Source: a virus
Length of the DNA stretch: 23,577 nt
Reading direction: 5' to 3' (one strand)
IMG/VR virus record: IMGVR_UViG_3300048836_000936
Coordinates: 1 to 23,577 of that record
The notes under the pieces are model-generated. The model saw only the letters and a list, made by a program, of their open reading frames with translations. It was not told the origin of the DNA and did not search any database. A program made the position numbers and the translations under genes. Positions 1-15,356 of the stretch are shown here, in pieces. Every line of letters begins with the position of its first letter. The stretch's first letter is position 1.

Positions 1-957
1 ATGCCCCGTGCCATCGGCGCCAATTGCCGTCTGCTCATGATCCCCGAGGCGACCTACGGCACCGCGCCCGCGGGCGACTGGCTGCGTATGCCCTTCCTCT
101 CCTGCGACCTCGGCGCCGAGCAGCCGCTGCTCGATGCCGATGTGATCGGCGTCGGCAGCAGCCGCGATCCGGCGGCACCCTTCCTCGACACCGTCACCGT
201 GCAGGGCCAGGCGGTGGTCCCGGTGGATCTGGTCAACATCGGCCACTGGCTGCGCCTGCTGCTCGGCCCGCCGACCACCACCGGCACCAGCCCGAATTTC
301 ATCCACAGCTTCGGCTCGGGCGCGGCGGCGCTGCCCTCGAACAGCGTCGAGATCGGCTATCCCGACGTGCCGAACTACGATCTCTGCGCCGGCGTGCGCG
401 CCGACACGCTGGAGATCGACTTATCGCCGACCGGCCCAGCGACGGCGACCTTCGGGCTGATGGGGCAGGGCTCGACGCGCGGTGCCTCGAGCTCGGGCGG
501 CACGCCGACCAGCGCCGCCTACACCGCCTTCCACAAGGCGCAAGGTGCGATCAGCCGGAACGGCGCCGCGCTCGCCCAGGTGACCGGCGCACGCCTGACC
601 TACGCGAACGGCATGGAGATGGTGCGCACCATCCGCGCTGACCGGAAGGTGGAGGGGGTGGATCCCGGCATCGCGCGCGCCACCGGCCAGATCACCGCGC
701 GCTTCGCGGACACCACGTTGCTGACCCAGGCGCAGAACAATGCGCCGGCGGAGTTCGCCTTCGGCTACACGATCGACGCGAACCGCAGCCTGACCTTCGT
801 GCTGCACGAGGTGTATCTGGCGCTGGCCAAGACCCCGGTCGAAGGGCCGGGCGGGGTCGAGGCCAGTTTCGAGTTCCGCGCGGCCTACAACACGACGGCG
901 ACGCGCATGATGACAGCGGTGCTGAAGAACCAGCAGGCGGGGACGGAGTACGCGTGA
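1..957 (+). CDS. Phage tail tube protein
   Basis: This 318-residue protein is probably the major tail tube subunit that polymerises around the tape measure to form the siphovirus tail. The assignment rests on length, on the beta-rich, Gly/Thr/Ala-rich composition typical of tube proteins of the Phage_tube_2 type, and on position ahead of a tail chaperone and tape measure. The N-terminus (MPRAIGANCRLLMIPEATYG) resembles the usual start of these proteins, where a short basic segment precedes 'E-T-YGT.P'. The ATG is the first base of the window, so the ribosome-binding site is not visible. The gene ends with TGA at 955-957. It should be followed directly by the tail chaperone, but a large reverse-strand gene intervenes. 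Codon use is strongly GC-rich, like the other tail genes. The family call is from memory. Confidence 0.8.
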   Translation: MPRAIGANCRLLMIPEATYGTAPAGDWLRMPFLSCDLGAEQPLLDADVIGVGSSRDPAAPFLDTVTVQGQAVVPVDLVNIGHWLRLLLGPPTTTGTSPNFIHSFGSGAAALPSNSVEIGYPDVPNYDLCAGVRADTLEIDLSPTGPATATFGLMGQGSTRGASSSGGTPTSAAYTAFHKAQGAISRNGAALAQVTGARLTYANGMEMVRTIRADRKVEGVDPGIARATGQITARFADTTLLTQAQNNAPAEFAFGYTIDANRSLTFVLHEVYLALAKTPVEGPGGVEASFEFRAAYNTTATRMMTAVLKNQQAGTEYA

Positions 958-1048
958 CGCCAAGCGCGCTGCGTGAGGAGGGAGGTGGTTTCGAAGCATG
1001 CGGCAAGCTGCGCCAAGTAGCCGCGGTCGCCGTCGCGCACGACCTCCA
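958..1048. other. Left junction of the cargo gene with the tail operon
   Basis: This 91-base strip lies between the tail tube stop and the stop codon of the reverse-strand NTPase gene. A strong Shine-Dalgarno-like run (GGAGGGAGGTGG, about 978-989) precedes an ATG at 998, but the reading frame behind it runs only 48 codons, mostly antisense to the NTPase gene. It may be an orphaned phage start signal. A GTG at 954 overlapping the tube stop also opens a frame (to 1193). On the reverse strand an ATG at 1049 overlaps the NTPase stop (TGATG) and opens 54 codons down to 885. None can be confirmed as a gene. I found no terminator, tRNA or convincing target duplication here. Confidence 0.4.
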
Positions 1049-4000
1049 TCAGTTCTTAGTTCCGGATTTCAGACTCACCCTTTGCCTCGGGCCTGTTCGC
1101 TTACCCACCTTGGCTTCTCGCTCCGTAGTCAGCCGCGGCTTTAGGTCGAGGCCCACGACCTGTATGTGGATTTCGTCGGGGAACCCTCGCTGAACTGCCT
1201 TCGCCGAATCCTGCAACATCGCAATAAGCCCATCGAAGTCGAGATGCTCGCCGGTGTCGGGGTGCTGCCAGCCGTCGCGCTCTGCTCGCGTGATCATGAG
1301 GCAGCCAGCACGACGACCCGCGGGCGCCAGGTACTTTCTAACGAGTTGCTCCGAGATCACCGCCTTCAGGTCCGTGCCTGAATAGTCCTTGTCGCCGACC
1401 TTGAGTTCAATGACACCTTCGATCGCGCTGACTGGGGAACGAAGCCTGATGTCGGTCTCCTTCTCGTCCACGGTTACGTTTTCCTGAGCGATCGAATAGG
1501 CGCCACGGGCATGCGTCTCCAGAAAGCGCGCGATTTCCCGCCGCATAACTCGCTCGTCTTTGATGGACGACCAGAGCTCGCGAGGCGAAGTGTCCTCAAG
1601 CATATGATCGTGAAGATCATCGAGGCGATCCAGCATGAGCACGAACATTTCCGCTGCAGATCGAGGTGCCGGCTCCCGCCTGTCGTCGAGTGTGCGCACT
1701 TCCTCGGGCCGCATCGCCAGGTTGTCCGCCTCCCTCGCGCTCTTCTCCATCGCCAGCGCGCGAAGCCTTTCTCGAAGATGCGCGAACTCCGGCTCGTTTG
1801 CGATGTCTTGCTTGGCCTTCCATCCGTCCGCGCCACCGAGTTCGATCACGGCGTTGAGCAGCATGTTGCGACCCGTCTCAGCAGTATCCCGCGTGTCTGG
1901 CGAATAGCTGCGTTCGTGGACGTTGTCTTCTTCGCGCTCGACGTGTCGATAGGCGAGCCGGAGGAGACGGAGAAGAAGATCGGCTGTCATTCCTCGGTGT
2001 TTGAGGTCGACGCCCTGCCCGCGATGAAGCCCACCGAACAGCTTTGCGAACCATTCCACAGCCGCGCTCTCCCGGGAGACACTGACATCGGAGCATATGG
2101 TTTCTAGCCGCTCGACAGCCCTCTCCGGGTCTACTTCGAACAACGCCGGCAGCAAGACGCGGGAGAACTGCTCGCTGCTTCCTTTAGCAAGAGCAGACGA
2201 CGCCATCGTCCCGATCGCCTCCCTGTCAGCGCCGTCGCCAAACTTTAGAAGGATCTCGATCACTTGCTCGAGCCGATCCGCTGCGCCACTGGCGTCGTCC
2301 GCCGGTGCCGGCTGGTCTGGGTCAGACTCGATCCATAACCGGAGGCGCGGCAAGAACAGCCTAGCGACCTCAGGATTCGCGTACTGGATGTCCTGCAGCA
2401 AGATCGATCGCGCATTAGCCTTCGCCGGCAACGACAGCGTCCAGCTGACCTCGCCGCCGAGCACGCGTTCCACTGTCGTGGGATGGGCCGCAGTTAGCGG
2501 AGCCAGCCAAGCCGGAAAGTTGGAGCTGCTCAGAGGCACATATCGGACCGCGGTCTCCGCCTCGCTAGGCTTCAGGCGAGCGGCCCATTCGGCGTCCTCC
2601 GCTTCTGCAGCAATAGCGGCCAAAGCGAGTGTCCAGCGGTGAAAATAGATGTTGCGTTCTTTCTCGGGGCGTTCAGACGGCAGCAGCGGCGTCTCTCTCC
2701 TCCACAACGGAATCAGGGCGCACCGAAGTCGGTCAGTGATTTGCTTCCCAAGATGCTTCTCCATCAGTTGGCGGTCCCAGCCTGAGGAGTTGCTCCGAGC
2801 CCCCCCGCGCGCCATCACCTGCAAGAGGTTCCACGCGGTGTTCTCAGCGTGCTCAGGACTGAACGCAGTGTCTGGATCATCCTTGAGGTTTCGCCAAAAC
2901 ATGACCCAGCTCGCTTTGTCCTTCGCCTTGCGCCGCTCCTCTTGACGCTTGCGTCGTGCGTTGCAGACGGCCCAGCGGCGTTCTGTTCTGCTGCTGAGAG
3001 GCGGCTTGAGGCGCTCCTCTAAGAATGCGGCGAGTTCGGTATCGTCGGATACGAGTGGCCTAAGGCTCTCGAGATAGGCCTTGGGGTTTTCGGTTTCTGG
3101 AGTGAAAGCGAATACTTCCATCAGCAACGCCGCGGCCCTGAGATCCGCCGAGGTATGCGAGGTCGACAAAAGCTCCCGCATCCATGCGCTATCGTCTTCC
3201 CTCAACCTCAGCGCGCCTCGCCAAGCAAGCTCCATAAAGAGATCCAGCCGCGGCCGTTCCGGTCGCAGTCTTCTCATGAGTGCGACATGCTCTACGAAAA
3301 GGGCAACTCGGACCTCCGGCAAAGCCGAGGCGACCGCTTCGGAAAGCCTTGAAGGTATCGCGTCGTCCGACCTCATGCCGCGCGCCAATTCGGCCGCTAG
3401 GGCGACCGATTTCGCTTGCGACGCCGAAAGCGCGCCCGCGCCGAGCAGCAGCGCGCAGGTTGCGGCCAGCAGATGGACGAGATGTGGACGCTTGTTCCTG
3501 GAAGTGCGGAGGTTGACGTCTAGGCTGAACCCATCTTCGACCAGCGGTGTAAGCCCGAAGCGCAGTTCTTCGAGCCGCTCGACCGTCAGTTCCTCAACGC
3601 GAGGAGGAAGGTTGCGAGACAGCTCTGCGCCAGTGCGCTGGGTCTCCTGCACCCAACTCAAGACTGCAAGGAACTGATTGACCGACATGTGCTGCGGAAA
3701 CAGCCGGTAGATGGCTGATCGCGCGAAATCCTGACCCCACCGGCCGGGCCCGACGCGCAACTCCTCCGCAATCTGCAGGAGGTCGGGGTCCTCAAGCGCA
3801 ATCATCGCGTTAAGCGCGTCAATTCTCTCCGGCAGCTCGACCTTCGGGTCCCACACAACTCGCCGCGCTAGATGTGCGCAGTCGTGCAGACGAGCGTCAC
3901 CGATCAGGTCGAGCAGTATCTCTCGCACCTCCGGATTCTCGATCGCGTCGAACTCAGCGCTGATGATCGATGCCATGGAGGTGTCCGCAAGCCGGTGGAC

Positions 4001-5410
4001 TTGGATCTGCGGAACGGAAAGACCGCGCCAGCCACCCTTGCCGAACCGCTCGATGAACGTAGCCAAGACCTCCCGCCGTTGCTCTGCTGACAGGCTGCCG
4101 GGGTCGCCGAGGTTCATCAGTAGGGCCGGGTCGAACGCAACCACGAGGTCGAACACCCACCGCTGCCGTAAAGCAAGCCAGGCGGCTACCTCGCGCAGTG
4201 AAGGACGGATCGCGGTGAACCCTTGGGCGGTTTGCACGGTGAGCAGGCGTCGCAACGCCTTTCGTGACATGCCGACCTCGACTAGGTCAGCGAATCGCCA
4301 TGCGGCCAGAAATTCGAATGCTAGCCGATTGTGGAACCTTACCCGACCATAGCTCGCGAAGCCGAAAAGCGCGCGTTCCAGTAGTCCTTTTCGGTCGTCA
4401 TCGCGCCAGTCAGGCAGGATGACCGCGGGATCCACTACGGGCGGCGCATCGCCAAGGTCGTTGTTCACGTCGTGCCGGATTGTCATGCGCTGAGTGAGGA
4501 CGACGGCGAGGGCGAGCCGCTTCGCCCCCTCCAAAGCACTTGCATCCTCAAGCTGCCTGTCCGGGCGCAGGACGTTGGGCTTCAGCCGAACCTTGATATC
4601 GAGCTCGACCTGCTGCGCATGCGTGCCGAACCTCCCACCCAATTCGTTCCATGCGCTTGCGGCTTCGATCACGTCCTGCGGGCGCCGCATAAAGTCCAAC
4701 ATTGAGGACGTCTCGAGGCCCTTCAGGAACGCGGCGGTGTCTCTGACCCCACGGCTCGCCGCCAGTTTTGCAACGTCCGCTGATCTGAGTGGCATCAGGG
4801 AGACGAACCGTACTTCAGGCGGTCCGTCCGTCTTCTCCTTTTCGCGCGTCTCCCCCAGGGCTAACGCAACGAAGGGGCTCTCACTGAGCGGCGGAGGCGA
4901 TTTGGGTGCAGCGAACGTCTTCAAGAAGAGGTCTCGATCCACCGGCAGCGGGCGCGAGGTGAGCACGACCCGGAGGCGGGCCAATTGACCTTGTAGGTCG
5001 TTCGCGACGTTCCGCAGCGCGGCCTGGAAGCCCCGTTGCGTCAACTTCAACTCGTCGACCGAATCCAGGAAGATCGTGGCGATCTCGGCCTCTGCGTATC
5101 GCCACCTCTCGAGGCGATCCGTCTCATCGGGCGACCGAAGTTCCCGCCAAGGCTGTGAGGCGACCGAAGATAGCTCGATGTAGAACGCAGGCTGTCCCGC
5201 TTCCCATAAGGCTTGCTGCATAGCTTTGCACTCATGGGTTTTACCAGACTGCGCCTCCGAGAGCAGGAGAATAAGGCGCGATTTTAGTACATTGTCCCAG
5301 TCAGAGACCTTGCCGAACCCAAACTGCCGGATCAGTGCCGTCCTCTCAGCTTCATCCACGTCCTTGTCGCTGAGATCAAAAAAGGTGCGTCGGATTTCGG
5401 TGGACGTCAT
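1049..5410 (-). CDS. NACHT/STAND-like NTPase with C-terminal PD-(D/E)xK-like nuclease, putative anti-phage protein
   Basis: This is a 1453-residue cytoplasmic protein. Near the N-terminus are a P-loop (SEAQSGKT, residues 51-58), a Walker B/NACHT-type motif (TIFLDSVDEL, 112-121) and a sensor-like LTSRP (150-154), the order seen in NACHT/STAND ATPases. Residues from about 350 to 1250 look almost entirely helical, with repeated Leu/Arg/Glu-rich segments like HEAT/TPR sensor repeats. Near the C-terminus, D1320, then IELK (E1335, K1337) and a following QLVRKYL fit a PD-(D/E)xK nuclease core. Known Avs proteins usually have the nuclease at the N-terminus, so this order is reversed. The gene lies antisense inside the prophage tail operon and is visibly less GC-rich (about 58% in one hand-counted line, against 67-70% in tail genes), which suggests transfer. 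Sensing phage and cutting DNA is inference. The first P-loop Gly is replaced by Ser. Start: ATG at 5410 with a weak GGGAAG upstream. Confidence 0.75.
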   Translation of the reverse strand: MTSTEIRRTFFDLSDKDVDEAERTALIRQFGFGKVSDWDNVLKSRLILLLSEAQSGKTHECKAMQQALWEAGQPAFYIELSSVASQPWRELRSPDETDRLERWRYAEAEIATIFLDSVDELKLTQRGFQAALRNVANDLQGQLARLRVVLTSRPLPVDRDLFLKTFAAPKSPPPLSESPFVALALGETREKEKTDGPPEVRFVSLMPLRSADVAKLAASRGVRDTAAFLKGLETSSMLDFMRRPQDVIEAASAWNELGGRFGTHAQQVELDIKVRLKPNVLRPDRQLEDASALEGAKRLALAVVLTQRMTIRHDVNNDLGDAPPVVDPAVILPDWRDDDRKGLLERALFGFASYGRVRFHNRLAFEFLAAWRFADLVEVGMSRKALRRLLTVQTAQGFTAIRPSLREVAAWLALRQRWVFDLVVAFDPALLMNLGDPGSLSAEQRREVLATFIERFGKGGWRGLSVPQIQVHRLADTSMASIISAEFDAIENPEVREILLDLIGDARLHDCAHLARRVVWDPKVELPERIDALNAMIALEDPDLLQIAEELRVGPGRWGQDFARSAIYRLFPQHMSVNQFLAVLSWVQETQRTGAELSRNLPPRVEELTVERLEELRFGLTPLVEDGFSLDVNLRTSRNKRPHLVHLLAATCALLLGAGALSASQAKSVALAAELARGMRSDDAIPSRLSEAVASALPEVRVALFVEHVALMRRLRPERPRLDLFMELAWRGALRLREDDSAWMRELLSTSHTSADLRAAALLMEVFAFTPETENPKAYLESLRPLVSDDTELAAFLEERLKPPLSSRTERRWAVCNARRKRQEERRKAKDKASWVMFWRNLKDDPDTAFSPEHAENTAWNLLQVMARGGARSNSSGWDRQLMEKHLGKQITDRLRCALIPLWRRETPLLPSERPEKERNIYFHRWTLALAAIAAEAEDAEWAARLKPSEAETAVRYVPLSSSNFPAWLAPLTAAHPTTVERVLGGEVSWTLSLPAKANARSILLQDIQYANPEVARLFLPRLRLWIESDPDQPAPADDASGAADRLEQVIEILLKFGDGADREAIGTMASSALAKGSSEQFSRVLLPALFEVDPERAVERLETICSDVSVSRESAAVEWFAKLFGGLHRGQGVDLKHRGMTADLLLRLLRLAYRHVEREEDNVHERSYSPDTRDTAETGRNMLLNAVIELGGADGWKAKQDIANEPEFAHLRERLRALAMEKSAREADNLAMRPEEVRTLDDRREPAPRSAAEMFVLMLDRLDDLHDHMLEDTSPRELWSSIKDERVMRREIARFLETHARGAYSIAQENVTVDEKETDIRLRSPVSAIEGVIELKVGDKDYSGTDLKAVISEQLVRKYLAPAGRRAGCLMITRAERDGWQHPDTGEHLDFDGLIAMLQDSAKAVQRGFPDEIHIQVVGLDLKPRLTTEREAKVGKRTGPRQRVSLKSGTKN

Positions 5411-5550
5411 GGCTTCCCGTGACTGAGGACTCCTGGCGAACTTAACTTATGAGGAATGGTTACGCACAGCCTGCGTGCGATGCGAAAGGCGCATGCTGTT
5501 GCCACCCTGCGGCCGGCCTCTTCCCTCAACTCACGCACAAGGAGAATCGC
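5411..5550. other. Right junction and upstream region of the cargo gene
   Basis: This 140-base spacer separates the divergent starts of the NTPase gene (-) and the tail chaperone (+). It must contain the cargo promoter, yet I see no strong -35/-10 pair. The stretch around 5445-5455 (read on the minus strand as CATAAGTTAAGTT) is the most AT-rich part and could hold a -10. The chaperone has a good AAGGAG at 5539-5544. The exact border between acquired and phage DNA cannot be placed by eye; GCATGC occurs on both sides (996-1001 and 5491-5496), but six bases is too short to be meaningful. Confidence 0.35.
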
Positions 5551-5928
5551 ATGCTCACTCTCGACCTCCCGGCCGAGCCGTACTGGCTCGACCTGCCGCG
5601 CGGCGTGCGCGTCGAGATCCGCCCCGTGACGACCGCCGTGATGGCGGCCGCCCAGGCCGCCGCTGCACGTCGGTTGACCGCCATCCGCCTCGCCGACCCG
5701 GACATCGACGCCGACATGTCGCGCGGCCTGTCCTTCGCTTTCCTGGTCAAGGCGCTCGCCCGCCACGCAGTGACTGCCTGGGAGGGCGTCGGCGACGCCG
5801 CCGGCCAGAAGCTGCCGCTCTCGCCCGAGGCGGTCGAGCGCCTGATGGACCTCGACGACATCGCCGCCGCCTTCTGGGATCGCGCCACCGCTCCCGTCGC
5901 CGCGGTGGCTGCCGAGGGAAACGGCTGA
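5551..5928 (+). CDS. Phage tail assembly chaperone (G-like, unshifted product)
   Basis: This 125-residue protein is the short form of the tail assembly chaperone, which in siphoviruses binds the tape measure and recruits tube subunits and is absent from the finished tail. The ATG at 5551 is chosen because AAGGAG lies at 5539-5544 and an upstream in-frame start has none. Support comes from its position just before the tape measure, its small size, an N-terminal beta-rich half (LDLPAEPYWLDLPRGVRVEI) and a helical acidic C-terminal half, and above all the frameshift signal at its 3' end. The ORF ends at TGA 5926-5928, two codons past the slippery heptamer. Sequence similarity to a named chaperone family was not recognised directly, so the call depends on context plus the frameshift. 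Confidence 0.8.
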   Translation: MLTLDLPAEPYWLDLPRGVRVEIRPVTTAVMAAAQAAAARRLTAIRLADPDIDADMSRGLSFAFLVKALARHAVTAWEGVGDAAGQKLPLSPEAVERLMDLDDIAAAFWDRATAPVAAVAAEGNG

Positions 5929-6251
5929 GGGCCCGCGCCGCCTGGCACTTCGGCCGCGGGCCCGACTACTGTCGCGGCTGCGCCGCGCTCGGCCGCGACT
6001 GCGCCGACGCCTGCCCCTATGCTGCGCAGGCTCCCATCAGCCTCGAAGGCCACGCCTGCTGGGCGGCCGGAACGTCCTGCGCCGAGGCGACCATGGCTGG
6101 CCTGATGCTCGACACCACCGGCGCGCTCGCCGCGGCACGCGATCTCGGCGCCGCCGGCTGGGCCGCCGCCGAGTTGCTGCTCGCCATCCGCATTGGCATG
6201 GCCGAGGGCGCCACCGCCCGCCGCGATGGGGAGGGAAAGCCGAATGGCTGA
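5551..6251 (+). CDS. Tail assembly chaperone frameshift fusion (G-T-like), -1 frameshift at 5916-5922
   Basis: Ribosomes slipping back one base on GGGAAAC would read 124 codons of the upstream frame and continue from 5922 for 109 more, giving a 233-residue fusion ending at TGA 6249-6251. This is equivalent to lambda gpGT, whose T part recruits tail tube subunits while G binds the tape measure. The downstream frame lacks its own well-placed start before 6093, stays open and GC-rich to the tape measure start, and overlaps it by 8 nt. The extension is unusual in being Cys-rich: YCRGC, then RDCADAC, then HAC and TSC, with the first four spaced C-x2-C-x6-C-x3-C. That suggests metal binding, which lambda gpT is not known for. 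A separately started small protein from ATG 6093 is the alternative. Confidence 0.78.
5916..5963 (+). promoter_or_regulatory. Programmed -1 ribosomal frameshift signal
   Basis: The heptamer GGGAAAC (5916-5922) sits in the exact phase required (gaG GGA AAC), so both tRNAs can re-pair after slipping (GGG AAA). After a 6-nt spacer containing the zero-frame TGA comes a perfect 9-bp GC stem, GGGCCCGCG (5929-5937) with CGCGGGCCC (5955-5963), and a 17-nt loop in which CCG/CGG can extend pairing past a single-base bulge. Slippery site, spacer length and stem match classic -1 signals such as the one between lambda G and T. Confidence 0.88.
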
Positions 6252-8418
6252 TGCAACCCGCCGCGTCTCGGTGCGCCTCTCGCTGGACGACGCCGCCCGG
6301 GTCAAGGCCGGGCTACGCGAGGTCGGTGAGACCGGCCAACGCTCGCTCGACCAGATCAAGGGCGGCGCCGAGCGCGCCTCCCGCTCGCTGGACCTGCTCG
6401 ACGTCGCCACCCGCGGCATCCAGCTTGCCGGCGTGGCGGTGGCCGCCCGCGCCCTGGTCCAGGCCGGCGACGCGCTCACCCAGAGCCTCTCCCGCCTGCA
6501 GAACGCCACCGGCTCGGTCGAGCGCGCCGGTGCGGTCTACGAGGCGCTGTACCGCAACGCCCTCTCGACCGGCGTCGCGGTGTCGGAGAGCGTCGACGCC
6601 TTCCAGCGCTTCTCGATCGCCGCGCGGGAGATCGGCGCCACCTCCGACCAGGTGGTCCGCCTCGTCGGCGGCCTGCAGCGCGTCGCCATCGTCTCCGGTG
6701 CTTCCACGCAGGAGATCTCCTCGGCGACGCTGCAGCTTGCCCAGGCGCTCGCCTCGGGCGTGCTGCAGGGCGACGAACTGCGCTCCATCCTCGAGGCCAT
6801 GCCGCTGCTGGCCGAGGGGCTGGCCAAGGAACTCGGCGTCTCGATCGGCGAGCTGCGCAAGCTCGGCTCCGAGGGCAAGCTCACCGCCGAGCGGGTGTTT
6901 CCCGCGCTGCTACGCGCCACCGAACGCCTCGGCGCCGAACTCGACCGCGCCCCGCTCTCCCTTGGCCGCGCCTTTGGGCAGCTGACGGCGGCGACCGAGA
7001 ACTTCCTCGGCCAGCTCGACCGCGCCATCGGCCTGTCCAACGCGCTGGCTCGGGCGCTCGCCGCCGCAGCCCGCGCGGTGGACGGCGTCCGCCAGGGTGC
7101 GGGCATGCTCAGCGAGGAGGAACGCTTCGCCGGCATGCGCCGCCAAGCCGAGGCGCTGGCGGCACAGATCGCCCGGCTGGAAAGCCAGCAGGATGGCCGC
7201 GCCAGCCTCACCGCCCCGGTCCGCCGCGGCAGCATCCGTCCCGGCCTGGTCGGCGCCGCCGAGCAGCAGGCCGGGGTCGATCGCGCCGCCCGACTGGAGG
7301 AACTGCGACGGCAATACACGGACCTCCAGGCCGAGATCACGCGCGGCGAGCAGGCCGCCGGCGAGCGCCAGCGCAGCGAACAGGAGACCGCGGCTGCTGC
7401 CGCCGCCGAGGCCCGGCGTCGCCGTGCCACGCAGGATGTCCAGGAGCTCACCCGCGACCTCGACGACCGCTTCCGGATCAACCGGGAGTACGAGGAGCGG
7501 GTCCGCCGCCTGCGCGAGGCCGAGGCCGCCGGTGGCGTCACCGCGGCCGAGCGCACCCGCCTCGAGACCCTGGCGCTGCAGGAGCGCGACGAGGCGCTGC
7601 GCCGACTGGAGCCGCGCGTCGCCGCGGTTCGCCGTGCCAGTACCGAGGGGGCCCGGGAGGCGCGCGAGGCGGAGCGCGAGCTCAACGAGCTGCTGCGCGA
7701 GCGCGAGCGGCTGATCCAGAACAACGAGACCGCCTATGAGCGCTACCAGCGCCGCCTCGCCACCCTGTCCACCCTGGTGGAGCGGGCGGAACGGGCCGGC
7801 CGGGCGGTGCCCGACGAGACCATCCAGCGCGAGGCGGTCGCGGCGATGGAGGAGTTGGAGCGCGCCGAGCGCCGCGTCGAGGAGAGCGCCTCGCGTACCT
7901 CCGACACCGTCCGCGAGCTGGGCCTGACCTTCTCCAGCGCCTTCGAGGACGCGATCGTCAAGGGCGAGAAGTTCTCCTCCGTGCTGGAGGGGCTGCTGCA
8001 GGACATCACCCGCATCCTCGCGCGCAAGGTCATCACCGAGCCATTGGGCAATGCCGTCACGGCGGGTCTGTCGAGCATGGGTGCGGGGAGCTGGCTTGAT
8101 TCCATCGGTGCCGCGATCGGCGGCCTGTTCCGCGCCGAGGGCGGGCCGGTCGCCGCCGGCCAACCCTATGTCGTGGGCGAGCGCGGGCCGGAATGGTTCG
8201 TCCCACGCCAGGCCGGGACCGTGCTCCCCAATGGCGTGGCGCCGGGCGGGGGCGGCCCGACCATCCACACCAGCATCACGATCGACGCCCGCGGCGCGGA
8301 CGCCGGCGTCGAGGCGCGGCTGCGGCTGCTGGCCGGGCAGATCGCCCGCCAGGCCTCGGCGATGACGCTGGATGCGATCCGCCGTGGCGGCGCGGCCTAT
8401 GACACCGTGCGCGGATAG
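6244..8418 (+). CDS. Phage tail tape measure protein
   Basis: This 724-residue protein sets tail length, fills the tube and helps DNA pass into the host. The region of about residues 75-225 (NATGSVERAGAVYEALYRNA through SIGELRKLGSEGKLTAERV) matches the conserved tape measure N-terminal domain (TIGR02675 type). A long Arg/Glu/Ala-rich coiled coil follows (about 280-570). The C-terminus carries the common tail-end signature FRAEGGPVAAGQPYVVGERG near residues 635-655. A start at 6244 is chosen over 6193 because GGGGAGGG lies at 6228-6235 and MADATRRVSVRLSLDD is a typical beginning. It overlaps the frameshift ORF by 8 nt. At this length the tail would be fairly short for a siphovirus. The hydrophobic stretch around residues 60-85 is the only membrane-like part. 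Confidence 0.93.
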   Translation: MADATRRVSVRLSLDDAARVKAGLREVGETGQRSLDQIKGGAERASRSLDLLDVATRGIQLAGVAVAARALVQAGDALTQSLSRLQNATGSVERAGAVYEALYRNALSTGVAVSESVDAFQRFSIAAREIGATSDQVVRLVGGLQRVAIVSGASTQEISSATLQLAQALASGVLQGDELRSILEAMPLLAEGLAKELGVSIGELRKLGSEGKLTAERVFPALLRATERLGAELDRAPLSLGRAFGQLTAATENFLGQLDRAIGLSNALARALAAAARAVDGVRQGAGMLSEEERFAGMRRQAEALAAQIARLESQQDGRASLTAPVRRGSIRPGLVGAAEQQAGVDRAARLEELRRQYTDLQAEITRGEQAAGERQRSEQETAAAAAAEARRRRATQDVQELTRDLDDRFRINREYEERVRRLREAEAAGGVTAAERTRLETLALQERDEALRRLEPRVAAVRRASTEGAREAREAERELNELLRERERLIQNNETAYERYQRRLATLSTLVERAERAGRAVPDETIQREAVAAMEELERAERRVEESASRTSDTVRELGLTFSSAFEDAIVKGEKFSSVLEGLLQDITRILARKVITEPLGNAVTAGLSSMGAGSWLDSIGAAIGGLFRAEGGPVAAGQPYVVGERGPEWFVPRQAGTVLPNGVAPGGGGPTIHTSITIDARGADAGVEARLRLLAGQIARQASAMTLDAIRRGGAAYDTVRG

Positions 8419-8433
8419 CGGGGAGGGATCGGC

Positions 8434-9123
8434 ATGACCGAATACGCCTGGCCCGCCACGCTGCGGCCGTCGCGGCTGAGCTTCTACCTGCAGCACAACA
8501 CGCTGCGCTTCGTCTCGCCGGTCAGCCGCGCCACCCAGGTGCTGCGCCGCGACGGGGCGCGCTGGATCGCCGAGGCCAGCTTCGATCCGCTGAACCGCGT
8601 CCAGGCCGGCCTGCTGGAGGGGCTGCTGGCGGCGCTCGCCGGCTCGGCCAACACCATCCGCATCTGGGACTGGCGGCGCGAGTACCGCACCGGAGATCCG
8701 CGGAGCCAGGGCGAGGTGCCCGCGGGACCGTATTCCTTCTCCGACGCCACCATCTTCACCGACGGGACGGGGCTGGTGGTGGGCAGCGGCACGCCGTCAC
8801 TCGCCGCCGGTGCCCCGCGCGGTGCCCTTTCCCTCCAAACCCAGGGCTGGTGGCCGAACGCGGTGGCGGTCGGCGCCGGGGACCATATCGGCCTCGCCGG
8901 CCGGCTCTACATGGCGACGGAGTCGGTGGTGGCCTCCGGCACCGGCACGGCCACCATCCCGATCGCCCCACCGCTGCGCGCCGCGGCTTCGCTCGCCGAG
9001 CCACTGGTGCTGACCACGCCCACCGTCGCCATGCGGCTCGCCTCCGACGACGAGGGGATAAACCCGACCCGGCCGGGGCGCTTCACCGCCATCACCATCC
9101 GCCTCGAGGAGACGTTGCCATGA
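8434..9123 (+). CDS. Distal-tail-like minor tail protein
   Basis: This 229-residue protein is placed as the tail-tip ring protein (Dit position) that joins tube and baseplate hub. Directly visible: an N-terminal beta-rich half (SRLSFYLQHNTLRFVSPVSR, RWIAEASFDPLNR) like the region of distal tail proteins that contacts the tube, then a Gly/Ala/Thr-rich beta-sandwich-like half, with no signal peptide or membrane segment. In gene transfer agents and related siphoviruses the gene after the tape measure is the DUF2460/Dit-type protein, and the following order here (hub, peptidase, tip) matches. I did not recognise a diagnostic motif, so the role is from synteny. A GGGAGGG motif lies 8 nt before the ATG. 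The stop overlaps the next start (ATGA). Confidence 0.65.
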   Translation: MTEYAWPATLRPSRLSFYLQHNTLRFVSPVSRATQVLRRDGARWIAEASFDPLNRVQAGLLEGLLAALAGSANTIRIWDWRREYRTGDPRSQGEVPAGPYSFSDATIFTDGTGLVVGSGTPSLAAGAPRGALSLQTQGWWPNAVAVGAGDHIGLAGRLYMATESVVASGTGTATIPIAPPLRAAASLAEPLVLTTPTVAMRLASDDEGINPTRPGRFTAITIRLEETLP

Positions 9124-9698
9124 CAGACGGCATCGCCGCCACGCCGCGCCTCTCGCCCCAGGCCGCGGCCGCTGCCACCGCCCCTGTCGCCACCCCCGTG
9201 GTCCTCGTCGAGCTCGACTTCGCCTCCGGGCCCATCCGCGCCTGGACCGGCCTCGGGCCGCTGCATTGGGCCGGCGTAACCTACGAGGGCATGGGCACCA
9301 TCGGCGCGGTCTCCGACATCGAGGAGACCGCTGAGCTCCGGGCGGTGCGGATCACGCTAACCCTGTCACCGGTGCCGCAGGAGGTGGTCGACATCGCGCT
9401 GGCCGAGCAGTCCTTCCGCCTCCGCCCCGCGCGGCTGTGGGGCGCGCTGCTCGATGCCGAGGGCGCCTTCGTCGCCGACCCCTTTCCGCTCTGGGCCGGG
9501 CTGATGGACACCATGCAGGTGGTGGACGGAACGGAGCCCAGGATCTCGCTCACCTGCGAGAGCCGCCTGGTTGACCTCGAGCGCGCCGAGGTGCGTCGCT
9601 ACACCGACGCCGACCAGCAGGCCGAGTATCCGGGAGACCGCTTCTTCGAGTTCGTCCCCGCCCTGCAGGAGGCGGAGATCCGGCTGCCGGCCAACTGA
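9120..9698 (+). CDS. Baseplate hub-like minor tail protein
   Basis: This 192-residue protein probably forms part of the tail-tip hub. It starts at ATG 9120, overlapping the previous stop by ATGA; a longer upstream reading in the same frame is antisense-like shadow. It has an N-terminal beta-rich domain (VVLVELDFASGPIRAWTGLG, VTYEGMGTIGAVSDIEET) and a characteristic end, LVDLERAEVRRYTDADQQ followed by YPGDRFFEFVPALQ. I recall this end from siphovirus proteins found between a distal tail protein and an NlpC/P60 peptidase. In gene transfer agents this slot holds the DUF2163 hub protein, but I could not establish membership of that family here. The stop TGA overlaps the next ATG by one base, indicating coupling with the peptidase-like gene. 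Confidence 0.65.
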   Translation: MTDGIAATPRLSPQAAAAATAPVATPVVLVELDFASGPIRAWTGLGPLHWAGVTYEGMGTIGAVSDIEETAELRAVRITLTLSPVPQEVVDIALAEQSFRLRPARLWGALLDAEGAFVADPFPLWAGLMDTMQVVDGTEPRISLTCESRLVDLERAEVRRYTDADQQAEYPGDRFFEFVPALQEAEIRLPAN

Positions 9699-10051
9699 TG
9701 GCTCGGCTGCCGGATTGGCACGACCGGCTGGCAGCCCTGCTTGCCGCGGCGGAAACGCGCCCGTTCGACGCGCATAGCTGGAACTGCGGGCGCTTTGCCC
9801 TCGCCGCGGTGATGGCCACCACCGGCCGGCGGCCCGGGTGGCGCAGCCTGCCGACACTGGAGGCCACGGCCGACAGCGCCGGCTTCCCGCGCATCCCGCC
9901 GACCTTCGCGCGGGCGGGGGATGTCGTCCTGGCGGGCGATCCGCCGCGGCTCGGCGTCGTGGTCGATGGCGGCCGTGCCGCCTTCGTCGGTCCCAAGGGC
10001 CTGCTCCGCGCCCCGCTCACCACCTGTATCACCGCCTGGCGCATCGACTGA
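9698..10051 (+). CDS. NlpC/P60-like (DUF6950-type) tail peptidase
   Basis: This 117-residue protein resembles the small cysteine-peptidase-like proteins encoded before the tip protein, which in related phages may trim peptidoglycan during DNA entry. The candidate nucleophile is Cys30 in HSWNCGRFAL, followed at about residue 70 by the ARAGDVVL strand typical of NlpC/P60 folds. The usual 'HVG' segment is replaced by RLGVVVDGG, so the canonical catalytic His is missing, as I recall for DUF6950 proteins in general. Its activity is therefore uncertain. It starts one base inside the previous stop (TGATG). The C-terminal ITAWRID is also typical of this family. It is the equivalent of gene 14 of the gene-transfer-agent cluster by position. 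Confidence 0.8.
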   Translation: MARLPDWHDRLAALLAAAETRPFDAHSWNCGRFALAAVMATTGRRPGWRSLPTLEATADSAGFPRIPPTFARAGDVVLAGDPPRLGVVVDGGRAAFVGPKGLLRAPLTTCITAWRID

Positions 10052-10072
10052 TGCCTCGGAGGACCGCGCCCG

Positions 10073-12079
10073 ATGCCTGCCGCTGTCCCCCTCATTGCCG
10101 TCGCCGCGGCCGGTATCGCCTCCGCCGCGGTTGGTGGCGGCATCATCGGCGCCGTGGTCGGCGCCGGCGCCGCCTTCATCGTCTCCGCCATCGGCCAGTC
10201 GGTCTTTCCGCAGAAGCAGAAAAAGCAGGCCAGCCTCAGCCCGCAGGCGGCGGCGATCGCCGGCTTCGACGCCGGCCAGCCCGGCGCCGGCCGCACCCAG
10301 GCCTTTCGCCAGCCGGTCACCGAGCACCAGCTGGTCCTCGGCCGCTGCAAGGTGTCCGGCCCGATCGTCTTCCTGCACTCGACCACCGACGACGAGGGCC
10401 GCACCGATGGCTACTTCTATTCCGTCGTCGTGCTCGCCGCGCACCGCGTCCGCGCCATCGGCGAGGCGTTCCTCGGCGACAAGGTCGAGAGCGATGGATC
10501 GCTTGCCGGGCTGGTCCGCATCGACCGCCACCTCGGCGAGCCAGGCCAGGCGGCCGACACCAATCTGATCGCCGAGACCGGCGGCCAGTGGACCAGCGCG
10601 CATCGCGGCCGCGGCCGCGCCTATGTCGCCGTCCGGCTCAAGCTCACCGCCGAGGCCTTCCCCGCCGGTCCACCCAACATCGCGGCCATCGTCGAGGGCG
10701 CCGACACCATCCTCGACCCGCGCAGCGGCGCGACGGGCTGGACCGACAACCCGGCCCTGTTGCTCGCCTGGTACCTCACTGCGCCGTTTGGCTGGCGCGC
10801 GTCGTGGTCCGACATCGACATCCCGGCGCTGATGGCGGCCGCCAACATCTGCGACGAGCTGGTCGGCACCCGGGCCGGGGTCTACGAGCGCCGCTATACC
10901 GCCAATGGCGTGCTGTCGCTCGCCGAGGGCAAGATCGCCATCACCCGCAAGCTCGCCGCCGCCATGGCCGGCGCCCTGGTGGTCTCGGGCGGGCGGTTCT
11001 TCATCCATGCCGGCGCGCCGGCGCTGCCGGCGGCGACGCTGACCTCGGACGACCTCCGCGGCGACGTCACCATCCAGGGCGCACGGCCGCGGCGCGATCT
11101 CTTCAACGGGGTGCGCGCCGTCTATGTCGAGCCAGCCGCCAACTGGCAGCCCACCGATGCGCCGCCGCTGCTCGCGTCGAACTACGTCGCCCAGGATGGT
11201 GGCGAGATGATCTATCGCGACCTCGAATTCCCGCTCACCACCTCGGTCAGCACGGTCCAGCGGCTGATGAAGCTTGAGCTCGAGCGCAACCGCCGCCAGC
11301 GCACCGTGGCCTTCCCGGCCAACCTCTCGGCGCTGCGGCTGCGGCCCTGGGAGGCGGCGACGGTGGTCCTCGACCGCCTGACGCCCTTCCCGGCGCGCGT
11401 CACTGCCTGGTCGCTGGCCGCCGAGGGCGGCGTCGATCTCACCCTGGAGGAGGAGGACGCCGCGGTGTGGGACTGGAACCCGGCGGTCGATGAGCGCGCC
11501 ACCGGATCGAACCCCGCCGTGGTGCTGCCCAACCCGGGGGTCATCGCCGCGCCGGCTGGCATCACGGTGGAGACGCCACAGGCGACCGCCTTTGCCGTCC
11601 TGGCCGTGTCCTGGGCGGCGGTCGGTTCCTCGCACCTCGCCGGCTACCAGGTGGAGTTCCTGCCCGCCTCTGTCGCGGCCTGGCAGGGCTATGGCGGCTC
11701 GCTGGGCGCCACCGCCGCTGCGATCTCAACCGCCGAGCCGACCGGCTTCCGGGTGCGCGCCGTGGCGCGCAGTGGCGCGGTGTCGGGCTGGCGGCAGGCC
11801 CTCGTCCCGGCCGCAGTGGCGGCGCCCACGGCGACGGGCATCAGTGGCGGGATCCGGCTCTCCGGCGGGTTCCCCTCCGACGCGGTGCGGCTGCAGGTCT
11901 TCGAGGCCAGCACGAACAGCCTCGCCGCGGCGACCAAGCTGCCGGACGAACCGACCGGGCTCTTCTGGGACCGCACCGGTCTGACCGCCGGCGACACCCG
12001 TTGGTACTGGCTGCGCGCCGTCTCGGCGGAGGGCAACGTCTCGGCCCTGGCTGGGCCGGTGACAGCGACCGCGCTGTAG
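10073..12079 (+). CDS. Tail tip attachment / host specificity protein (J-like, TipJ)
   Basis: This 668-residue protein is the central tail fibre/tip protein that contacts the host. Residues 1-48 are strongly Gly/Ala/Val-rich with membrane-inserting character (IIGAVVGAGAAFIVSAIGQS), common at the start of J-like proteins. The middle contains the conserved tail-3/tip region: VLGRCKVSGPIVFLHST near 88-104, a TGWTDNPALLLAWYLT segment near 225, and LPLT-type beta segments up to about 460 (VVLDRLTPFPARVTAW). Residues from about 500 onward have fibronectin-III-like character (FAVLAVSWAAVGSSHLAGYQ). A GGAGG lies at 10058-10062, 10 nt before the chosen ATG. It is shorter than lambda J. Its tail-spike partner follows after an 11-nt gap. 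Confidence 0.87.
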   Translation: MPAAVPLIAVAAAGIASAAVGGGIIGAVVGAGAAFIVSAIGQSVFPQKQKKQASLSPQAAAIAGFDAGQPGAGRTQAFRQPVTEHQLVLGRCKVSGPIVFLHSTTDDEGRTDGYFYSVVVLAAHRVRAIGEAFLGDKVESDGSLAGLVRIDRHLGEPGQAADTNLIAETGGQWTSAHRGRGRAYVAVRLKLTAEAFPAGPPNIAAIVEGADTILDPRSGATGWTDNPALLLAWYLTAPFGWRASWSDIDIPALMAAANICDELVGTRAGVYERRYTANGVLSLAEGKIAITRKLAAAMAGALVVSGGRFFIHAGAPALPAATLTSDDLRGDVTIQGARPRRDLFNGVRAVYVEPAANWQPTDAPPLLASNYVAQDGGEMIYRDLEFPLTTSVSTVQRLMKLELERNRRQRTVAFPANLSALRLRPWEAATVVLDRLTPFPARVTAWSLAAEGGVDLTLEEEDAAVWDWNPAVDERATGSNPAVVLPNPGVIAAPAGITVETPQATAFAVLAVSWAAVGSSHLAGYQVEFLPASVAAWQGYGGSLGATAAAISTAEPTGFRVRAVARSGAVSGWRQALVPAAVAAPTATGISGGIRLSGGFPSDAVRLQVFEASTNSLAAATKLPDEPTGLFWDRTGLTAGDTRWYWLRAVSAEGNVSALAGPVTATAL

Positions 12080-12090
12080 GGGAATCCTCC

Positions 12091-13917
12091 ATGCCCGCCC
12101 GCATCGACGACCTGCTGGTGCTCGACACCGCGGTCAGCAAGACCGATCTCGCCAAGTACCTGCGCGACCGCGAGACGGTGCTGCCCTCCGACTTCGGCGG
12201 CCTCGGCGATGGCGTCGCCGATGATCGCGCCCCCATCCAGGCGGCTTTCGACCGCGCGGCGGCCGACCAGAAATTCGCGGTCATCCCGCCCGGCACCTGG
12301 AACGTCTCCGCCGGTGTCACCCTCGGCGGCGGTGCCCGCGGGCTGATCATGCACGGCGTCATCCGCTACACCGGCAGCGCCCCGGCGACCGTGCTGACGC
12401 TCGGCGATGGCGGCACGGTCCGCAACGGAGAGAAGCACTATGCCGGGCTGCAGGTCACCCGGCAGATCCAGTCCGACTGGCTCGACGAGGCTGACATCGG
12501 CATCCTGGTGCGCAACATCGACGCCTCGGTGGTCGAGCTGCGCCTGGTGTCGGGCTTCACCATCGGCATGCGCACCCTGGGCGACGGCCGCGGCGTCGAG
12601 GACAGCACCTTCCACCTCGGGCGGATCCTCAACAACCGCATCGGCCTCGATATCCGCTGCGCCACCGCGACCGCCTGGAACACCTCCATCCGCTACTACG
12701 GCGGGCACTTCGCGATCGCGACCGGGATCAACCCCACCATCGACCGCTTCGGGATCCGGCTGTCCAAGGCGGACAGCGCCTACAACAACCACAACCGGCA
12801 CGTCTTCGACGCGCCGAATTTCGAGTTGCGCCAGCTCGATCCGAACGTCGCGATCCCCTTCCTCAACGAGACCAGCGGCTCGGCGATCATCGGCCGGGCG
12901 CTGCGCATGGAGGCCTGCTCGCCGATCGTCGCCCGGCACACCGCGGCGGCGCAGGATTGCGAGTACGAGGTCGCCTGGTCCAACACCTACCAGGTCGGCA
13001 TCGACTACACAGCCACCGCCACCCGCTGCGGCAACACCGTGCTCAACCGCCACCGCGCCCCGGCGTCGCGGCATCTGCGGCTGCACGGCGCCGTGCCGAA
13101 TGTTCGGGCCCAGGCCTTCCGGCACAGCGCGACCGAGATCGGCGTCGAGGGGCTGGCGGTGGTCGCCACCTCGACCACCAGCGCCACCAACCTCGCCGGG
13201 CTGTCCTTCAATGGGCTGGACGACATCACGCCGACCGCGCGCGGGTTGCTCCTCGAGGCGCAGCGGGGGCTGGCCTTCGTGGTGGAGTGCAGTCAGGCGA
13301 AGGAGTTCGCCCTGGTTCATTCCCTTGTCGGTGGCGTCGACGGCGGGCGCGTCTTCGTCCGCTGCTTCGACGCGGCGATGAATGTGCGGGAGAACATCGC
13401 CGGCGACGCGCTGGCCTCCATCACCACGCTGCTGTGGAACGTCCCGTCCAAGGCCTGGACCGGCGGCGCGGCCATGGCCGACGCGTCGCTGAACAAACGC
13501 ATGACGGTGAGGCTTGGCGCAGGCGTTGCCTTCGCGCAGATCGGCATCGTCGGCTTCGATGGGCAGATCGAGGTCGAAGCATTGCGGCTCTATGGGCTGC
13601 CGGAGGCGGCACCGGCGCTGCTCTGTGGGACGCCGGCCCTGCCGGTGGGGCAGCGGGAGTTCGCGGCGGAGGTAGCGTGGGACCTGCCATCGCTGGCCCC
13701 TGGAGCGACCAGTCTGCTCGACGTCACCGTCAACGGCGCACGGCAGGGAGACCTTGCCCATACCGCGCTCGCCTCGTCGACGCGCTTCATCGAGCTCGAC
13801 GCCGCGGCCTGGTCCAACAATACCGTCCGGGTGATGGCGCACAACATCTCACCCGCGACCTTCGATCTCGGATCGGCAACGCTATCGGTGCAGGTGACTA
13901 AGCGGCGTGTGCCATGA
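12091..13917 (+). CDS. Tail spike protein, pectate-lyase-like beta-helix
   Basis: This 608-residue protein is a probable receptor-binding tail spike, perhaps a polysaccharide depolymerase. After a short N-terminal attachment segment (about 1-35, LLVLDTAVSKTDLAKYLRDR) comes the typical beta-helix opening LPSDFGGLGDGVADDRAPIQ, then VIPPGTWNVSAGVTLGGG, as in the Pectate_lyase_3 superfamily. Repeated short Gly/Asn/Thr-rich strands continue to about residue 390, and a separate beta-rich C-terminal domain follows. No catalytic acid pair can be assigned by eye. The ATG at 12091 is preceded by AGGGGA; the longer upstream reading overlaps the tip gene and is rejected. It is the last recognisable phage gene in the window; no lysis genes follow. 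Confidence 0.83.
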   Translation: MPARIDDLLVLDTAVSKTDLAKYLRDRETVLPSDFGGLGDGVADDRAPIQAAFDRAAADQKFAVIPPGTWNVSAGVTLGGGARGLIMHGVIRYTGSAPATVLTLGDGGTVRNGEKHYAGLQVTRQIQSDWLDEADIGILVRNIDASVVELRLVSGFTIGMRTLGDGRGVEDSTFHLGRILNNRIGLDIRCATATAWNTSIRYYGGHFAIATGINPTIDRFGIRLSKADSAYNNHNRHVFDAPNFELRQLDPNVAIPFLNETSGSAIIGRALRMEACSPIVARHTAAAQDCEYEVAWSNTYQVGIDYTATATRCGNTVLNRHRAPASRHLRLHGAVPNVRAQAFRHSATEIGVEGLAVVATSTTSATNLAGLSFNGLDDITPTARGLLLEAQRGLAFVVECSQAKEFALVHSLVGGVDGGRVFVRCFDAAMNVRENIAGDALASITTLLWNVPSKAWTGGAAMADASLNKRMTVRLGAGVAFAQIGIVGFDGQIEVEALRLYGLPEAAPALLCGTPALPVGQREFAAEVAWDLPSLAPGATSLLDVTVNGARQGDLAHTALASSTRFIELDAAAWSNNTVRVMAHNISPATFDLGSATLSVQVTKRRVP

Positions 13918-13954: not shown

Positions 13955-14198
13955 TCCAACCGTGCGGCCGGCCCTATGACGGCCGGCCTGGTAGGCGCCA
14001 GCGGGGTCGCCGCCATTCCCACCACCACCCTCGATCTGCCCCTCGTGCAGCGTCTCCGGCGGTCCCCGCGCTTTCGGGTCCGGGTCCCCTTGCGGCGACG
14101 ATAGCAGCCGGTGGTCACGATGGAAGTGTGAGCATGTGCGAGTGCTCCGCCGGCAGCTTCAACGAACTCTTGCCGTCGCGAAGAGATTGCAAGCGAGA
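13955..14198. other. Convergent intergenic region, nothing confirmed
   Basis: This region lies between the hairpin behind the tail spike and the end of the reverse-strand 385-aa gene. A 42-codon frame (ATG 13976, stop 14102-14104) begins within a CTATGA overlap with a 21-codon frame from ATG 13914, but its Arg-rich end and lack of a good ribosome-binding site argue against a gene. I see no tRNA, attachment-site-like repeat or integrase, so the prophage end could lie here but is unmarked. Confidence 0.35.
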
Positions 14199-15356
14199 TC
14201 ACGGAATTCGCGCTGGGTAAGGAATATCGAGATCGCGTTGCAGCGAATGAAGCCTGATGTTCGAACCATCGAGATCCCTCGAGAAGCGAAGGATCTCCTG
14301 CCGCAGCTTGAGGTTCCCGTCCTCCAGCGAGAGTTGCTCGGATACCACCGCCCGATACAGCGTTTCGCCGTCACTGGCGCTGCGGGCCGCGGCCGGAACC
14401 GCGTCGCCGAACTGTGCGAAGAGGGCACGCCCCTTCTCTGCCAGTGAGAGGCCAGTTTCGAGCTTGTCGAGGAAGCTCAACATCGCTGCTGCACGCTCGG
14501 CGCGCCGCAGGTCCCTCGCCAGCCGTTCCCTGACCTCCTGCAATTTCTGACGGCTCTCCCTGGCGTTGCTGAGGACCGCCTCGGCATTTCGTCGCGCTGC
14601 CTCCTCGATCGGCGCATGCCGCACCGCGCGCTCCAGCGCAGCGATACGCTCCACCTCCTGCTGCGTTTCCAGGGCCTGCCTGGCGATGCCAACAGCTCGC
14701 ACACTTCGCCGATTGGCCGACAGCACTCCATATGCCAGTCCGTTGATCTCCTGGACCTCCAACCCGTCTGGGCCTTCCTTGATCCAGAGGAACCAGCTGT
14801 TCTCGTTCGAAGTCACCCAGTATCGTCGGTCATTGCCGACCGGAGCACGCCCTTGAGAGGATCCTGTCGGAGAGCCCGGCCGAAGCGTAGGCGGGCGTAC
14901 GGGTGCGCCGACCACGGCATCAGGGCTCGATCCAATCCCCACGAGGGACATGTGCTCGAAGCGCGTCTGCTGAGGCCCCTCGGTCGGGATCCGCTGTCGC
15001 AATACCTCGACCTCCACGAGGATGCCCTGACCTCCAAGCCACGGGACCAAGCGATCCAGCTGTGGCCGCATCGCGTCCCAGGCCCGTGCAGCCTCGACCC
15101 TCGTCGCACGGCCATCCAGCATTTCGAGGACTGCCGGTCCGAGTTCCTCGATGGCGCGGTAGGTGCGGCGGCGGATTGCGCCGGCCCTGGAGACGCCGTC
15201 TCCTGCCAGGTCCGGACCAAGGGCAGGTGGTGGCGGCACCGTGACGACGAGGTCGCCACCGCCAACCGGGACCTCCCCGCTCATCGCCATCCCTCCGACA
15301 ACCAGGGTGAGCGGCAGGGTGAGCGCCCACAGCGCCTTTCTATTCGAACCGTTCAT
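14199..15356 (-). CDS. Secreted or membrane-anchored coiled-coil protein of unknown function
   Basis: I do not recognise this 385-residue protein. Visible: a basic start and hydrophobic segment (residues 6-25, RKALWALTLPLTLVVGGMAM) fitting a Sec signal or anchor without a lipobox Cys; a helical part to about 110; a Pro/Ser-rich linker (about 140-175); a short beta part including RRYWVTSNENSWFLWIKEGP; and a long coiled coil from about 220 to 320 (ETQQEVERIAALERAVRH, RESRQKLQEVRERLARDL), with a second heptad-rich piece near the C-terminus. The start ATG overlaps the stop of the 464-aa gene (ATGA), with GGGAGG just upstream, so the two are translationally coupled and probably work together in the periplasm or outside. 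A role as partner subunit, pore-former or surface protein is speculation. Confidence 0.7.
   Translation of the reverse strand: MNGSNRKALWALTLPLTLVVGGMAMSGEVPVGGGDLVVTVPPPPALGPDLAGDGVSRAGAIRRRTYRAIEELGPAVLEMLDGRATRVEAARAWDAMRPQLDRLVPWLGGQGILVEVEVLRQRIPTEGPQQTRFEHMSLVGIGSSPDAVVGAPVRPPTLRPGSPTGSSQGRAPVGNDRRYWVTSNENSWFLWIKEGPDGLEVQEINGLAYGVLSANRRSVRAVGIARQALETQQEVERIAALERAVRHAPIEEAARRNAEAVLSNARESRQKLQEVRERLARDLRRAERAAAMLSFLDKLETGLSLAEKGRALFAQFGDAVPAAARSASDGETLYRAVVSEQLSLEDGNLKLRQEILRFSRDLDGSNIRLHSLQRDLDIPYPARIP

Follow-up and report, generated by a model that had tools for sequence, protein, structure and literature searches.

Locus and inserted gene

Why does a large gene lie backwards inside the tail operon of a prophage, and what does it do there? 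The stretch of DNA analysed here (the window) is a complete IMG/VR record, a linear virus fragment of 23,577 bases, of which the first 13.9 kb form a siphovirus-type tail module from tube to spike (Table 1). The initial annotation had pointed to a reverse-strand gene of 1453 residues between the tail tube and tail chaperone genes, had read it as a defence cargo carried in the middle of the late operon, and had proposed that late transcription could silence it during lytic growth or else that the insertion may have made the prophage defective. The gene is indeed found there, complete with an ATG start, and composition does shift at both of its borders, the GC content being 0.69-0.71 on the left (about 0.70), 0.57-0.64 across the gene (about 0.61) and 0.73-0.76 on the right (about 0.74). 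Furthermore, a twin IMG/VR contig (L003) is 100% identical to positions 1-9518 of the window, both insert borders included; the same join is thus present in a second record, and the insert is not confined to one. The virus is one integrated in a Roseomonas-type bacterium, with this gene, hyoA, placed backwards in a slot between two tail genes.

Table 1. Positions of the tail module, the inserted segment and the prophage end in the window.
Feature	Position	Strand	Basis
Tail tube (Phage_tube_2), left anchor of the proposed hotspot	1..957	+	Pfam E=2.6e-53; phrog_290
Inserted cargo segment, tube stop to chaperone ATG	958..5550	.	empty-site comparison; loss of blastn homology
hyoA, 1453 aa, ATG start	1049..5410	-	NCBIfam NF058534
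Intergenic stretch closing the cargo on the right, with the chaperone ribosome-binding site and the presumed promoter region of hyoA (minus strand)	5411..5550	.	
Tail assembly chaperone (corrected start), right anchor of the proposed hotspot	5551..5928	+	phrog_313, E=5.2e-15
Programmed -1 frameshift heptamer G GGA AAC (GT-type chaperone)	5916..5922	+	sequence; -1 frame open to 6251
Tape measure protein (true start probably at 6244)	6193..8418	+	TMP_3 E=3.1e-51
Distal tail, tail tip, DUF6950, central fibre J-like and tail spike genes	8434..13917	+	Pfam/PHROGs
Prophage right end (attR), probable	14070..14095	.	three-way comparison with L246 and L247

Borders of the insert and empty sites

In blastn comparisons with the window, more than 200 related loci match over the tube gene and about 200 from 5.5 kb onward. 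Over 1.0-5.5 kb the only matches are the twin, a single record that appears as L002, L003 and L083, and the window's own record (L001); positions 958-5550 are the only part of the tail module at which homology to relatives is lost. Related prophages with an uninterrupted pair, whose alignment had been suggested as a way to define the borders, do exist. Five loci are empty, four of them with stop and start directly fused as TGATG or TAATG. The tube stop overlaps the chaperone start in L056 and L063 (GCG TGATG CTC, GCGTGATGCTC), the two genes are directly joined in L103 and L127 (GCATAATGCTC), and in L030 the gap is shorter than 20 bp.

Aligned to these empty sites, the cargo occupies 958-5550 and is therefore wider than the 1049-5410 first noted. 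It reaches 5550 and not 5410 because the real chaperone start is the ATG at 5551: the listed chaperone reading frame opens at 5449, but its first 34 codons are not conserved in most relatives, which align from about residue 35, and the ATG is found at the equivalent position in 143 of the 162 loci that carry a cargo. A strict target-site duplication at the borders was considered and found unconvincing, as the GGAG common to both ends, which at the left lies in the last tube codons just ahead of the stop, is better explained by the chaperone ribosome-binding site.

The inserted gene encodes a predicted antiphage NTPase

Judged by its sequence, the product of 1049-5410 is HyoA, a predicted single-protein NACHT/STAND antiphage NTPase. 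It scores 1378.2 bits against the NCBIfam model NF058534 ('NACHT domain-containing antiphage protein HyoA'), which has a curated cut-off of 1200, and residues 6-1426 match over positions 1-1430 of the 1430 in the model. Pfam, PHROGs, PADLOC, the PDB and a profile search gave no match for the 1453-aa protein, which is named by NCBIfam only. A Walker A motif (SEAQSGKT, residues 51-58) and a Walker B motif (FLDSVDE, residues 114-120) are present, and in an alignment with four Acetobacteraceae homologues (26-41% identity) residues G56, K57 and T58 of the former and F114, L115, D116, S117, D119 and E120 of the latter are invariant. So are D1320, E1335 and K1337 within the last 140 residues, which form a PD-(D/E)xK-like motif (E1335-L-K1337) and suggest that the C-terminus is a nuclease of this type. 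AlphaFold models of the N- and C-terminal parts, made from 2-3 sequences each, reached a pLDDT of 42, too low to bear on the predicted fold.

Among 299 sampled Acetobacteraceae genomes, four contain hyoA above the cut-off, and no conserved partner gene was found among the Acetobacteraceae copies, hyoA being a lone gene without a common neighbour. Distant homologues were found on plasmids, and among viral contigs the search retrieved no more than two distant homologues besides the twin; on one phage contig (L253) a distant homologue adjoins an integrase-like gene, as read by eye. A lone gene with homologues on plasmids and beside an integrase is as expected of mobile defence.

On another phage contig, of 40% GC (L254:10001-13462), a distant homologue lies beside genes that by eye resemble a P2-type portal and terminase, that is, near a known P2 hotspot. 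Two Acinetobacter 'phage' records with a 26% identical homologue were set aside, since the one inspected looks like a bacterial chromosome. Our literature search returned no paper on HyoA and none of relevance on prophage defence in Roseomonas.

The tube-chaperone junction as a cargo hotspot

With tube and chaperone as search queries, more than 200 loci were retrieved from viral contigs and from Acetobacteraceae genomes, the host genera including Neoroseomonas, Siccirubricoccus, Falsiroseomonas, Caldovatus, Rubritepida, Crenalkalicoccus and others. Both genes are present in 167 distinct loci, and the tube protein is 77-100% identical among related loci with a full-length match. Apart from the five empty sites (3-17 bp), all of these carry something between the two genes (162 filled sites, 0.6-7.1 kb). 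By nucleotide similarity the filled sites fall into 96 clusters, one with 53 members and 95 others that are mostly singletons, and even a single genome can hold copies whose cargos are unlike in length and gene content, as in Neoroseomonas alba (L157, L163, L168 and L198). The standard deviation of the tube-chaperone gap is 1250 bp. In the same loci it amounts to 2-60 bp for the three junctions further upstream and to 20 bp between DUF6950 and J, while some outliers occur at the chaperone-tape measure junction and at two later ones (249-422 bp).

So are tube and chaperone normally adjacent, as had been assumed? They are in distant relatives: the gap is 13 nt in the cultured relative Rhodobacter phage RcKemmy and 2-6 nt in Shinella and Paracoccus prophages, and the pair is adjacent in 73 of 79 members of a Paracoccus-type clade (tube identity about 42%), the other six having about 1.07 kb. 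A Methylobacterium clade (L259-L305) shows intermediate occupancy, with 17 of 39 pairs within 65 bp and the remainder separated by 0.23-2.1 kb. The assumption thus holds for RcKemmy, Shinella and Paracoccus but fails in the window's own group, where cargo separates the pair in 162 of the 167 loci. Adjacency in the distant clades indicates that it is usual outside this group, and that the window's group turned the junction into a cargo slot. A pair normally far apart had been named as an observation that would speak against an insertion; taken literally this is the situation in the window's group, yet the insertion stands, other cargo being what mostly occupies the slot. The six exceptions in the Paracoccus-type clade (L317, L319, L332, L350, L356 and L362) all have a uniform insert at the junction, about 1076 bp long.

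What do these cargos encode? Gene calls in the cargos came from a simple picker based on GC3, and the scan covered representatives of the 159 protein clusters with a length of 150 aa or more. At E values up to 1e-5, the PADLOC matches include LmuA/LmuB/LmuC, BilA/BilB/BilD, HamB, IetA/IetS, RmrA and HEC-06, as well as PD-T4-6, PD-Lambda-3, TIR-NLR, ThsA, Lit, Mad and caspase models, while Pfam matches extend the list to nSTAND NTPases, inactive sirtuin, SIR2, GmrSD, ABC-3C components, HEPN-Toprim and patatin. Overall, the cargos include Lamassu, Bil, Hachiman-like, Iet, GmrSD, ABC-3C and TIR/SIR2/STAND types together with ParDE/Phd toxin-antitoxin pairs. Many have no defence match, and others encode ordinary proteins by Pfam (MFS, LysR, EamA, TctC, PNPase-like, transposases), so defence is not the sole content of the slot. 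A prophage whose tube is about 97% identical to that of the window carries in the same slot a Lamassu-like three-gene set in sense orientation (L006:11191-15976), a reading that rests on an SMC-like gene and its neighbours and on recognition by eye.

With HyoA above a curated antiphage cut-off, empty sites at hand and a slot rich in defence genes, the reading of a defence cargo in the middle of a late operon is well founded. We are confident that in Acetobacteraceae (Roseomonas-group) prophages the junction is a cargo (moron/defence) hotspot, which here holds hyoA. Recombination in the conserved tail genes on either side may be the means by which its cargos are exchanged.

Orientation of the cargos and control in the life cycle

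When the largest gene of each cargo cluster is counted, as called by a simple gene caller and with phylogeny ignored, this main gene is antisense to the late operon in 70 of the 96 clusters and sense in 26 (p=8e-6). Purely antisense clusters number 59, purely sense ones 17 and mixed ones 20. It could be that this placement is a control device, likened to a noncontiguous operon arrangement within the tail operon, in which hyoA is on in the lysogen and off under antisense late transcription after induction, thereby avoiding self-attack. The significant bias speaks for it, and the Tha/Ith system of S. aureus uses a nested antisense arrangement for the same purpose (PMC11087260). However, about a quarter of the cargos are sense, the Lamassu-like set of L006 among them, the bias may instead stem from selection that disfavours overexpression of the cargo, or cargo terminators that would block late transcripts, and in 80-alpha the effect of antisense transcription is minor compared with that of the inhibitor protein (PMC11087260). 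As such, we regard the control device as possible but hold it with reservation. Silencing as such, which had been suggested for this cargo, seems plausible because of the bias and the Tha/Ith precedent, and the sense cargos show that antisense placement is not required.

In the mechanism that we propose, hyoA would be expressed in the lysogen from a promoter of its own, the large repeat region of HyoA would sense an invading phage, the protein would assemble via its NACHT ATPase, and the C-terminal PD-(D/E)xK-like nuclease would destroy DNA, blocking or aborting the infection. On induction, late transcripts would read through the slot to the chaperone and tape measure genes, the cargos usually bringing their own ribosome-binding site for the chaperone downstream. 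A promoter scan, weak for GC-rich Alphaproteobacteria, found no sigma-70-type promoter for hyoA, and terminator-like sites were not above chance. Phage tails are known triggers of some such immune systems. The further proposal that the tail operon holds a dedicated, exchangeable immunity slot is likewise tentative; through its antisense bias the slot would couple defence to the life cycle, with late transcription shutting down the cargo at the very time when tails are being produced by the phage.

The commonest cargo cluster, which accounts for 53 of the 162 filled sites (about a third), consists mostly of small antisense toxin-antitoxin-like pairs with ParD or Phd antitoxins, and such cargo is seen in L012, L033, L078, L104 and others. 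From the dominance of these pairs it could be argued that the chief role of the slot is that of a toxin-antitoxin or addiction site, by which the prophage is stabilised, and that large defence cargos arrived late. Given that the other 95 clusters are diverse and often larger, we consider this improbable; moreover, toxin-antitoxin pairs may also serve phage defence, and would then be compatible with a hotspot and not opposed to it.

Intactness of the tail operon

Has the insertion broken the operon? The GGGAAAC heptamer at the end of the chaperone gene is present in 138 of 148 related loci, the window included, and the chaperone of RcKemmy is annotated as a joined product. Just upstream of the chaperone, an SD-like core is found in 122 of the 137 filled sites with an ATG start, versus 10% at random cargo positions; the commonest is GGAG, six nucleotides from the ATG, and the window itself has AAGGAG at about 5539-5544. 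Otherwise unlike cargos sometimes share their last 80-150 nt before the chaperone, with 70-75% identity over 80-120 nt in e.g. L006, L011, L018, L158 and L180. Such common right ends would fit exchange by recombination in shared flanks, or a regulatory element.

The frameshift site, SD cores and common right flanks argue against a wrecked prophage. It might still be held that 4.6 kb inserted within an operon, in a window fragment without visible integrase or replication genes, left a defective prophage in which hyoA is a domesticated host gene that landed by chance. We find this very unlikely, as the genes on either side have open frames and many close counterparts, the chaperone keeps both an intact frameshift site and its ribosome-binding site, and filled sites are the norm (162 of 167 loci) across many species and samples. 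The earlier suggestion of a defective prophage is accordingly not supported: most sites are occupied, and a ribosome-binding site for the chaperone stands at the end of almost all cargos. That hyoA is a core gene of the phage family, normally at this site, has practically nothing in its favour beyond the twin record, as a search for the same protein at the same position in other phages gave only that twin, and among the 167 distinct loci sampled the slot holds hyoA solely in the window's own sequence.

Probable right end of the prophage and adjoining DNA

Homology to the sister prophages L246 and L247 ends at CGCTTTCGGGTCCGGGTCCCC, and beyond 14.1 kb no locus matches the window by blastn. The left end and the integrase of the prophage lie outside the window record. 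A Druantia type III locus is located just outside the right end (18931-23506), with a DruH of 1101 aa and a DruE whose match extends to residue 347 of a 425-aa frame and then diverges, DruE being probably frameshifted or cut near the contig end. This locus presumably belongs to the host chromosome; it was rejected as a part of the prophage, since it lies beyond the point at which homology to the sister prophages stops, and a search of viral contigs gave no DruH. Two adjoining minus-strand genes of 385 and 464 aa (14199-16747), for which no Pfam, PADLOC or specific NCBIfam match was obtained, separate Druantia from the prophage end.

Comparison with known systems

The HyoA family itself is already known, and prophage hotspots are also a known kind (PMC9122126). 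New, as far as the papers searched show, are the location between tube stop and chaperone start in the tail operon of Acetobacteraceae prophages, the very high turnover, the re-supplied ribosome-binding site of the chaperone and the antisense bias. The tube stop and chaperone ATG provide a precise and cheap anchor for finding immune systems in prophages of Acetobacteraceae, and perhaps of Methylobacterium; most of the cargo clusters inspected are singletons, and many are without a known family. The slot furthermore offers naturally occurring variants with which to ask whether a phage that places its immunity genes antisense to a late operon is thereby spared self-attack.

With the NF058534 family the window protein shares its full-length match, a similar length and the lone-gene state, but it differs in sitting inside a prophage tail operon, and it is 26-41% identical to its Acetobacteraceae homologues. 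How does the slot compare with other places where phages carry extra genes? The defence hotspots of P2/P4-type prophages are high-turnover loci between conserved phage genes that are full of antiphage systems (Rousset et al. 2022, PMC9122126). The features by which such hotspots are recognised are found here as well, namely a small variable locus between conserved genes, high turnover and diverse known antiphage systems, and the likeness extends to small (~1-5 kb) antiphage-rich loci flanked by two conserved phage genes. However, P2/P4-type hotspots sit next to cos or between cI and integrase, while the present slot lies inside the tail operon of another phage family in another host group, with a strong antisense bias and many toxin-antitoxin pairs.

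Gp15 of HK97 is a moron in a late operon, and Tab of JBD26 is likewise a late-operon moron, located between terminase genes (PMC10884400). Both resemble the present cargo as an extra gene between conserved late genes, and such genes can confer superinfection resistance, but they are short single genes at other junctions, whereas here a recurrent slot holds up to 7 kb and about 96 different cargos.

A parallel for the orientation is Tha/Ith of S. aureus prophages, in which prophage defence is coupled to a gene nested antisense in an operon (Rostol et al. 2024, PMC11087260). The minus-strand hyoA between plus-strand tail genes shows the nested antisense gene order that is one mark of a noncontiguous operon. 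In Tha/Ith, however, the nested gene is the inhibitor Ith within the cI/tha transcript, whereas in the window, where no inhibitor gene is seen, it is the defence gene itself that is nested, and the surrounding operon is that of the late tail genes.
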